Positions 7,984-42,824 of a stretch of 48,636 bases of DNA are shown piece after piece. This DNA comes from Ruminococcus sp. (lineage in GTDB: Bacteria > Bacillota > Clostridia > Oscillospirales > Acutalibacteraceae): positions 1-48,636 of the forward strand of contig JAFUJH010000086.1 in assembly GCA_017473775.1 (NCBI GenBank), read 5' to 3'. The notes under the pieces were generated by a model, which was not told where the DNA came from, did no database searches, and saw nothing but the letters and a program-made list of their open reading frames with translations. Every line of letters starts with the position of its first letter. The stretch's first letter is position 1. The position numbers and the translations under genes were made by a program.

Positions 7984-8261
7984 AAAAAATAAAAGCCGTC
8001 CCAAATCCTGGGACGACTCATTGCCGTGGTTCCACCCGAGTTCAGCCGAAGATGTAAGCTAAAAAATCCTCAGCCCTCTGTAACCTGTAACGGGGTCAAC
8101 CGCATAAAGCTACTTTGTCTGAGTAAAAAGCAGATGTTCGCCTTATGAGCTCATGGGTGCATTTCGCCGATGGTGTCTTTAGGCAGATTTCAGCATACAC
8201 TGCCCTCTCTGTAAAGTCCTGTGGGGTACTTCTCCCAATCAAAGCCTTTTGATATTAACTT
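7984..8261 (-). promoter_or_regulatory. T-box riboswitch, Cys (UGC specifier), for cysE-cysS
   Basis: The conserved T-box sequence GGGTGGAACCACG is on the minus strand at 8026-8038. It is followed by a terminator, AGTCGTCCCA / TGGGACGGCT plus U-rich tail (8018-7984), which would compete with the antiterminator. Upstream, the Stem I region contains the GTATGCTGAAATC element and a specifier loop GAAATGCACC whose TGC codon is at 8161-8159. Uncharged tRNA-Cys should stabilise the antiterminator and permit transcription of serine acetyltransferase and cysteinyl-tRNA synthetase. Confidence 0.93.
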
Positions 8262-40593: not shown

Positions 40594-40787
40594 GTGTTAT
40601 CCGTTAAGATAACACGATGAATTGCAACCTTACGGTTGCGTGAATTGAAAGCTATACTTTCATGAATTGCTTACGGCATGAATTGTGCCTATTGGCACAT
40701 TGGTTGTAATTCAATTTATGGAGGAGGCAATATGCCGATGAGAAATCATGGCAAATGCCAATTCATAATGCGTTAGAATTAATTCAT
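40594..40787. repeat. Hairpin array B with (A/G)TGAATT linkers
   Basis: Linker copies at 40617, 40640, 40662 and 40678; inverted copies AATTCAT at 40760 and 40781. Hairpins: GTGTTATC-CGTTAA-GATAACAC, GCAACC-TTAC-GGTTGC, GAAAG-CTATA-CTTTC, a short TGC-TTACG-GCA, and GTGCC-TATT-GGCAC. Nearer the inverted side come GGCA-ATA-TGCC (40726-40736) and GGCA-AA-TGCC (40750-40759). Lies between pyk and a bidirectional terminator. Confidence 0.83.
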
Positions 40788-41946: not shown

Positions 41947-42459
41947 TTAAGAGTTTTCAGAGAGTCTGAGATTATAGAACTGTTTAAGCCACTCGGGTTG
42001 CAAGTTAACCTTATCTTTTAGCTTTTGAAGTGTTCGTTTGCCAAGGCGTCTGTCAAGTATAGCAAACATCCTGACCAAAGGATTGTCTGATTGTATACTT
42101 TCCTGTATGTCCTGATTGCGGTATGTTTCAAGGGTTTCACAGAATTCTTCATCGGTGTATTCGGTTCTTTCTGTTGCAGGATATTGCTGAAGCAAAGTGA
42201 AGAACCCGTCCCAGTATCCGCTGAGTCCTGTGAGTGCTGAGTCCTCTTTATATCCCATATCAATAAAATATGTATTTACTGTTTCAAAAGAGAATTGTTT
42301 GGATATATTTCCGTCAATAAATATCTCAAAGATTTTGCAGTTATCCGTATTTTTGTAGGAGGTGCAATTATATCGCACTCTGCCTTTCAGGGATTCTGCC
42401 AGCATTTCCTGTTCCAGATATTTTCTCATTCCACTCCACGAACCGAGAGCTTTACCCAT
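41947..42459 (-). CDS. SF0329-like protein of unknown function
   Basis: 170 residues. The start MRKYLEQEMLAESLKGRVRYNCTSYKNTD resembles the SF0329 family, which I recall as a group of uncharacterised proteins of similar length. No catalytic motif, signal peptide or membrane helix is visible; it is hydrophilic and moderately acidic. Start chosen at ATG 42459. It precedes no operon partner and lies between hairpin array C and the zinc-ribbon protein gene. The family match is from memory and needs a search. Confidence 0.5.
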   Translation of the reverse strand: MGKALGSWSGMRKYLEQEMLAESLKGRVRYNCTSYKNTDNCKIFEIFIDGNISKQFSFETVNTYFIDMGYKEDSALTGLSGYWDGFFTLLQQYPATERTEYTDEEFCETLETYRNQDIQESIQSDNPLVRMFAILDRRLGKRTLQKLKDKVNLQPEWLKQFYNLRLSENS

Positions 42460-42538
42460 GCAATCACCGCCTTTTCTTTATTATAGCAAAGAGGATAAAT
42501 CTATTCAATGTTTATATTCAATTTAGCAATTTGAAAAA

Positions 42539-42712
42539 ATGAAATATTTGCCTTGAGGCAAATATGAAATAATTTACTTTGTAAATTATGAAATTTTCTG
42601 CTACGCAGAAAGTGAAATAAAATTCGCCCTTAACATTTGCGTAGCAAATATTTCATAGGCGTCAGCGTATTTCATAGCGAAGCTATTTCACTCGCCGTAA
42701 GGCGAATTTCAT
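42539..42712. repeat. Hairpin array C with (A/G)TGAAAT linkers, both orientations
   Basis: Forward linkers at 42539, 42564, 42588 and 42612; inverted ATTTCAT/ATTTCAC linkers at 42650, 42669, 42685 and 42706. Hairpins on the forward side: ATTTGCC-TTGA-GGCAAAT, AATTTAC-TTT-GTAAATT, TTTCTGC-TAC-GCAGAAA. On the inverted side: ATTTGC-GTA-GCAAAT, a decayed one (42657-42668), AGC-GAA-GCT, and TCGCC-GTAA-GGCGA. It directly abuts the tRNA-Ala terminator. Confidence 0.88.
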
Positions 42713-42714
42713 TG

Positions 42715-42747
42715 AAAAAGACTGTTGCGAAAAGCAACAGTCTTTTT
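42715..42747 (-). terminator. Terminator of tRNA-Ala transcript
   Basis: Perfect 14-bp stem AAAAAGACTGTTGC / GCAACAGTCTTTTT with a 5-nt loop, ending in U on the minus strand, immediately 3' to the tRNA. Confidence 0.9.
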
Positions 42748-42748
42748 C

Positions 42749-42824
42749 TGGTGGACTCGGTGGGAGTTGAACCCATAACCTTTGCGTTGCGAACGCAGTG
42801 CTCTGCCAATTGCGCTACGAGCCC
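42749..42824 (-). tRNA. tRNA-Ala (anticodon CGC), with encoded CCA
   Basis: 76 nt on the minus strand, folding to a cloverleaf: acceptor GGGCTCG / CGAGTCC, anticodon loop TTCGCAA (CGC, reading GCG), T-loop TTCAACT, and a 3' ACCA. The G3-U70 pair is the alanine identity element and agrees with the anticodon. Mismatches at 12-23 (G-A), 27-43 (C-A) and 49-65 (A-C) make it weaker than a typical tRNA, but the length and all landmarks are right. Confidence 0.8.

Follow-up and report, generated by a model that had tools for sequence, protein, structure and literature searches.

A palindromic array of hairpin-spaced heptanucleotides beside a Ruminococcus tRNA gene: a probable gene-less copy of a mobile DNA element family associated with PF05635 proteins

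Background

Several kinds of bacterial repeats combine short motifs with hairpins. REP and BIME elements with their RAYT proteins, and IS200/IS605 insertion sequences, possess a conserved short motif at the foot of a hairpin and occur as inverted pairs; in REPs the stems are conserved as well. CRISPR arrays consist of conserved repeats of 20-50 nt with unique, non-palindromic spacers and are accompanied by cas genes. Heptanucleotide repeats in tandem, intergenic, dispersed and sometimes inverted, are known as GGGAATC in Xanthomonas and GGGGAYT in Nostoc (PMC4692102) and as TAACTGA in Beggiatoaceae (PMC4679880); in the main texts of these two papers the terms "four helix", "intervening (sequence)" and "S23" are absent and no protein of the PF05635 family is mentioned. 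This family includes the S23p ORF of the intervening sequences of 23S rRNA, which are described as short, selfish-looking, stem-forming and inserted at hairpins (PMC4990558), and it is related by sequence and structure to Avd of the diversity-generating retroelements (PMC10053308). Solved structures of PF05635 relatives are 2RLD and 2GSC. Finally, the Gut-1 RNA was described as certainly structured, probably not cis-regulatory and restricted to the human gut (Weinberg et al. 2010, PMC2864571). Our search for literature on Gut-1 found only this paper, and among titles and the first lines of abstracts returned for the terms searched on PF05635/S23p and on hairpin repeats linked to terminators or tRNAs, none describes an element such as the one reported here.

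The element lies in a stretch of 48,636 nt from a Ruminococcus sp. genome (assembly GCA_017473775.1, contig JAFUJH010000086.1), hereafter the window. It shares with Gut-1 the linkers and hairpins; Rfam, however, models a single half, as RNA, whereas here that half belongs to a palindrome, is linked to PF05635 and is usually situated outside transcripts. With REP/RAYT it has in common the motif at the hairpin foot and the inverted pairs, but not an association with Y1 transposases. Unlike the 23S rRNA intervening sequences, which share the protein family, the array elements are found outside 23S rRNA, 3' of tRNA or terminator hairpins, and contain hairpin-spaced heptads. The same spacing by hairpins distinguishes their units from those of the tandem heptanucleotide repeats. 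A repeat of 7 nt and spacers that are themselves hairpins set the array apart from CRISPR, and in contrast to diversity-generating retroelements no reverse transcriptase was seen in the array units read. RNA repeats of type III toxin-antitoxin systems were considered and dropped, because the order of parts and the protein family differ.

Results

The array in the window

Four forward and four inverted 7-nt linkers separated by hairpins are found exactly where the initial annotation had placed them (Table 1). The window sequence reads ATGAAAT at 42539, 42564 and 42588 and GTGAAAT at 42612, followed by ATTTCAT at 42650, 42669 and 42706 and ATTTCAC at 42685. The sequence also bears out the three perfect 7-bp stems claimed for the forward side (ATTTGCC/GGCAAAT, AATTTAC/GTAAATT and TTTCTGC/GCAGAAA); hairpins on the inverted side are weaker (TCGCC/GGCGA, AGC-GAA-GCT and the imperfect AGGCG..CAGCGT). 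The tRNA-Ala terminator, which the array had been said to adjoin, is a perfect 15-bp hairpin of terminator type that touches the tRNA with no bases between, and its counterparts in related genomes usually start 0-1 nt after the CCA. The other flank is formed by an ORF of the SF0329 family (PF25753). A relative of this ORF in another genome (G081) is likewise positioned behind an array at a different tRNA, with a different linker type (L064, L066), and arrays are present at two of the 12 SF0329-family ORF loci looked at, the window's own included.

Table 1. Features at and around the hairpin arrays of the window
Positions	Strand	Feature	Basis
40617..40787	.	Second hairpin-spaced heptad array, linker ATGAATT, array score 6.8	whole-window scan
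41950..42459	-	SF0329-family ORF (Pfam PF25753) lying downstream of the array	
42480..42508	-	Putative promoter, TTGAAT-17-TATAAT, in the stretch separating array and ORF	by eye
42537..42623	+	Distal half, Gut-1 match of 45.7 bits, below the cut-off	
42539..42618	+	Forward linkers with three 7-bp hairpins in between	sequence, array score
42616..42713	.	Alternative long-range stem, centre 42616-42628 with 42701-42713 (linker and 5' arm of the tRNA-proximal hairpin)	
42645..42714	-	tRNA-proximal half, member of Rfam Gut-1 (RF01706), 55.4 bits (cut-off 50)	
42650..42712	-	Inverted linkers with intervening hairpins	sequence, array score
42714..42748	.	Terminator-type hairpin (perfect, 15 bp) with T-run, separating array and tRNA	
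42749..42824	-	tRNA-Ala (CGC), its 3' end abutted by the array element	

Hairpin-spaced linker arrays were measured with an array score, whose chance level is given by dinucleotide shuffles. The window array scores 7.2, while the maximum in 1000 dinucleotide shuffles of positions 42500-42749 is 4.6 and 20 of the 1000 reach 4, so that a chance origin, against which the initial annotation had proposed this comparison, is rejected. Apart from this array and the second one everything in the window scores 3.8 or less. The second array is located downstream of pyruvate kinase and is bordered on the left by a perfect hairpin; its linker type was found together with PF05635 in other loci (L139/L241 and L238). 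The window also contains a T-box leader (8006-8251, minus strand, 114 bits).

Relation to Gut-1 and distribution of copies

The form of the array had initially been thought to correspond to no named element. This does not hold, as the right half of the array is Gut-1 by score (Table 1). Many Gut-1 matches form inverted pairs about 20 nt apart (51 loci read), and Gut-1 makes up one half of a palindrome that occurs at scattered sites in this genome and in related ones. This supports the supposition of a real, structured and repeated element. Gut-1 has 24 matches at E<=0.001 in this genome, nine of them above the cut-off, with copies 85-91% identical over about 160-190 nt. Its distribution is patchy within the genus: it occurs in 15 of 39 genomes including the own one, that is in 14 of 38 relatives.

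The same architecture recurs with other linkers that are alike inside each element (GTGAAGT, GTGATAT, GTTATAT, GCGATAT, GCTAAAT, GTGATGT, ACGATGT and ATGAATT). Altogether there are about ten linker types, with some eight near-invariant linkers per element, and the Gut-1 cut-off is reached in three of 20 loci of mixed linker types. These subfamilies, the partner gene described below, the terminator/tRNA target and the second window array all lay outside the view of the initial annotation.

Variation of the hairpin stems

It had further been proposed that the stems are all different and that only their pairing is kept. This is correct inside one element, but not among the copies of this genome, in which the same hairpins recur. 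Across more distant copies the stem sequence does vary while the pairing persists: in 17 copies 96.9% of the stem cells are paired, 19 of 26 stem pairs have changed on both sides, and 92 changed cells are two-sided against three one-sided. In 500 shuffles neither the paired fraction nor the covariation score was reached, while the number of two-sided pairs was reached once and that of pair types ten times. In the alternative stem, which joins the centre to the 5' arm of the first hairpin, the columns covary too. For the same 17 copies RNAalifold predicts pairing of linker to linker with hairpins at the junctions; variation in the linkers is too small for a test of this pairing (three two-sided pairs, equalled by 265 of 500 shuffles).

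Orthologous copies of other elements in two related genomes (G026 and G207) have kept their hairpins, with some stems replaced, and in the pair L114/L145 one hairpin pairs poorly. Replacement of whole stems, including that of a tRNA terminator, was observed between close sister species (L255 versus G207/G188; L114/L145).

The PF05635 partner gene

Genes of PF05635 (23S_rRNA_IVP; S23p/Avd-like) are present in 24 of the 39 genomes, the own one included. Some adjoin arrays: they are situated about 20-180 nt from Gut-1 matches, the array coming first and the ORF reading away from it. The unit of the window copy contains no PF05635 ORF and has the PF25753 ORF in its place; the genome does possess a PF05635 gene with the same linker, GTGAAAT, at G000:C92.

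A profile search across the order, for which 11 seeds mostly of the array class were used (A1), matched 171 of 394 genomes, again including the own one, and provided 30 loci and 80 more among the matches listed. An array score of at least 4.2 was obtained upstream of 118 of 144 distinct PF05635 ORFs, a set enriched for arrays by its array-class seeds and by some loci taken from Gut-1 matches or a pattern search, whereas one shuffle of each gave 3.8 at most. Where read, the order of the unit is terminator hairpin (in 93 of 114), array, promoter and PF05635 ORF, with the promoter seen by eye as TTGAAA-17-TATAAT in several units. In 33 of 118 cases an ORF of at least 40 aa starts in an ATGA overlapping the PF05635 stop codon. 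Seven of these coupled ORFs in a Pfam scan comprise an endonuclease/phosphatase, two MazG, a histidine phosphatase, a P-loop ATPase, an acetyltransferase and a nucleotidyltransferase. The same kind of small gene is coupled in this way behind PF05635 in different genomes, resembling cargo or a cassette (L171, L192 and L195; L178 and L215; L194 and L203; L134 and L135), and these genes are acetyltransferases, MazG-like or of unknown families.

PF05635 genes were also observed inside restriction-modification operons, as hsdS-PF05635-hsdR in Monoglobus and helicase-PF05635-methylase in Chlorohelix (L327, L337). On a contig labelled as an Akkermansia MAG (L089) the gene follows an ATTTCAC/GTGAAAT array with its halves in opposite order. 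Among 11 PF05635 loci on viral contigs, a clear GTGAAAT array accompanies the gene in one, the putatively viral IMG/VR contig 3300031555_007195 (L242); two of 50,697 phage records have a match.

Linkers are alike within an element and track the clade of its protein. Protein and linker distances are correlated (Mantel rho 0.58, 0 of 2000 permutations; 102 dereplicated units of 110), and for 89 of the 102 the linker agrees with that of the nearest protein, compared with 17% by chance. An exception is L193, with a protein of the GTGAAAT clade and GTGAAGT linkers. Part of this correlation is due to common descent, as linker and protein share one unit. A joint change of the linkers within an element, whose stems do not stay alike, is an argument for recognition.

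Sites and ends of the units

A terminator precedes 93 of 114 arrays, compared with 60 of 342 control stretches, and none was detected before the other 21; for 49 of these 93 terminators the distance from the end of the T-run to the first detected linker is 0-4 nt. A tRNA or tmRNA gene on the same strand lies within 170 nt of 74 of the 114 arrays. Conversely, 111 of 144 array-associated tRNA/tmRNA genes have a near-perfect hairpin at most 6 nt from the CCA (starting at 0-1 nt in 102), against 39 of 93 tRNAs without an array.

Among the 70 similar pairs listed, well-resolved pairs from different genomes are similar only over a unit of about 600 bp, with unrelated flanks. In the resolved pairs (L191/L205, L148/L178, L191/L198 and L130/L169) the likeness ends 5-14 nt ahead of the first linker and no more than 8 nt from the ORF stop: L191/L205 show 92% over 603 nt, from -9 (before the first linker) to +4 (after the stop), and similarity in L148/L178 extends from -8 to +1. 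Many other pairs start 30-120 nt earlier and include the hairpin, and some continue past the unit by synteny (L114/L145) or a common next gene (L192/L195). Multiple copies with defined ends at unrelated sites, as observed here, are what characterises MITEs and other insertion-sequence derivatives.

At the 3' end of tmRNA, each of three sister species has a different element. The tRNA-Arg site is occupied in G026 and free in G207 and G188; it offers the one clear left junction, and its right flank is rearranged. At tRNA-Cys the array is common to G026 and G207, and the adjoining hairpin stem is entirely different. That the element carries the terminator along is suggested at single loci only.

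The window copy itself, like the elements of this family, follows a terminator and consists of two inverted halves built on a single repeated heptad. The Rfam scan of the window shows tRNA and no rRNA, so that the copy does not lie in 23S rRNA. The sequence TTGAAAAA stands on both of its sides; by eye this repeat is not general among other copies, and no target-site duplication was resolved. No empty orthologous site of the window copy was found, the genus being too divergent: the tRNA stretch was matched in 11 of 120 genomes including the own one, in the others over 31-77 of 149 bases only, and the neighbouring ORF in 12 of 161, again including the own one. The unit contains no known recombinase. 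Y1 transposase was rejected as a mobiliser, since it occurs in 71 of 171 carriers and 82 of 223 other genomes (p 0.35), this genome having one weak Y1 match.

Tandem heptads beside other PF05635 genes

PF05635 genes of other classes are accompanied not by hairpin arrays but mostly by tandem 7-nt repeats, in Cyanobacteria, Spirochaetota, Bacteroidota and others; hosts include Nostoc, Aulosira, Planktothrix, Euhalothece, Treponema, Bernardetia, Monoglobus and relatives of the source genome. The classical cyanobacterial STRRs may be the same thing. A test for tandem heptads gave p<=0.01 in 28 of 38 cases, and most of the other ten are weak hairpin arrays by eye. In these sets, which are not random and cover the heptad link with tens of loci, 118 of 166 PF05635 ORFs pass the array score, 33 the heptad test and 15 neither; two of the array passes are really tandem heptads (Treponema L328 and Planktothrix L336), which changes the counts to about 116 and 35. 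One or the other repeat thus accompanies 151 of the 166, and the heptad test is passed by two of 113 other ORFs. At the loci of a plain Pfam search, which were not chosen for arrays, the 29 ORFs divide into 10 with a passing array score, 17 that pass the heptad test and two with neither (27 of 29 have one or the other). Heptad and protein distances are weakly correlated (rho 0.27, 0 of 2000, n=33), and in four further PF05635 genes the best period is 7 in three and 8 in one.

The linkers of the window are not tandem, having hairpins in between, and do not constitute an STRR-like repeat. Once the hairpins fold out, however, the linkers would become contiguous heptads, and we propose for this reason that PF05635 reads 7-nt units in folded DNA.

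Discussion

We consider it likely that the window feature belongs, as a gene-less and MITE-like copy, to a family of small mobile DNA elements, and that its heptads are read by a PF05635 protein. The full unit comprises a hairpin of terminator type, which in many cases directly adjoins a tRNA or tmRNA gene at its 3' end, the palindromic array, a promoter and the gene for the PF05635 four-helix bundle, with a translationally coupled cargo gene added in some units. The heptads may be bound by a PF05635 ring, and the hairpins, in folded single-stranded or cruciform DNA, would bring the 7-nt units side by side, so that only self-complementarity would need to be kept. The two inverted half-arrays could assemble at hairpin-bearing targets into a two-fold synaptic complex. 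Orphan copies such as that of the window would be served in trans by a protein of the same linker type, for which the gene at G000:C92 is the candidate here.

A wider interpretation is a serious possibility that we hold to be slightly short of probable: PF05635 (S23p/Avd-fold) proteins may be sequence-specific readers of 7-nt units, and the heptanucleotide repeats of bacteria, for which an explanation has long been lacking and which are spaced by hairpins in gut Clostridia but in tandem in Bacteroidota, spirochaetes and cyanobacteria, may be the cis-sites of one unrecognised class of mobile elements that do without a recombinase. The window array would be the gene-less form of this class and the "Gut-1 RNA" half of such a DNA site.

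Alternatively, Gut-1 could be an expressed structured non-coding RNA, present here in two inverted copies, whose single-stranded GUGAAAU linkers are bound by a protein, perhaps PF05635. The Rfam match, the strong covariation and the UUCG-like loops of the Gut-1 consensus are in line with this, as is its original placement among likely non-coding RNAs (Weinberg et al. 2010, PMC2864571). The loops do not indicate the strand, because UUCG on one corresponds to GAA on the other. The mispairs in the stems argue against an RNA: in 611 spacers (stems of at least three net Watson-Crick pairs), which represent ORF-linked arrays of several linker types and not the window copy alone, GT and AC mispairs stand at 18:16, plus 51 others, in contrast to 202:13 in the acceptor and T stems of 207 tRNAs from the same loci (p 8.6e-9 for the difference). 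The related arrays accordingly lack the acceptance of G-U that RNA stems display. The excess of two-sided over one-sided changes points in the same direction, and a palindromic element favours neither strand. Moreover, where the position was read by eye, the array is placed between the terminator and the next promoter, outside both transcripts. The missing G-U preference together with this position favours DNA rather than RNA, and we regard the RNA interpretation as unlikely.

Arrays and PF05635 might also serve the host, as dispersed rather than selfish sites that organise chromatin or insulate highly transcribed tRNA genes. This would agree with the terminator and tRNA positions, with the match of linker and protein and with several copies per genome beside few PF05635 genes. 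It appears improbable in view of the patchy occurrence among the relatives, the fact that a site shared by sister species can hold different linker types, and the sharp-ended unit at unrelated sites.

Movement via RNA, in which a reverse transcriptase from a diversity-generating element or of group II type would act in trans and copy array RNA into terminator hairpins, is in our opinion quite improbable. Class C group II introns do insert after terminators. Three RVT_1 matches in this genome and the resemblance of PF05635 to Avd of diversity-generating retroelements (PMC10053308) would also be compatible with it. Yet RVT_1 is found in only eight of 25 element-bearing genomes tested, the group II maturase (GIIM) in 14 of 171 carriers without association (p 0.71), and the stems exhibit no wobble preference. 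That the arrays are a mutational by-product, with template switching making and perfecting hairpins around short repeats that nothing reads, would account for stems replaced as a whole between sister species and for three segments (arm, arm and centre) changing together, but is very improbable given some eight near-invariant linkers per element that differ between subfamilies and a constant neighbouring gene and order.

Conclusions

If the window array is a gene-less copy of a mobile DNA element read by PF05635, two families are brought together: Gut-1, of unknown function in Rfam, and PF05635, without established function in Pfam, become each other's likely partner. The finding suggests a compact class of mobile elements at tRNA and terminator hairpins without a known recombinase, and offers a testable answer to the question why heptanucleotide repeats are so common in the intergenic DNA of bacteria.
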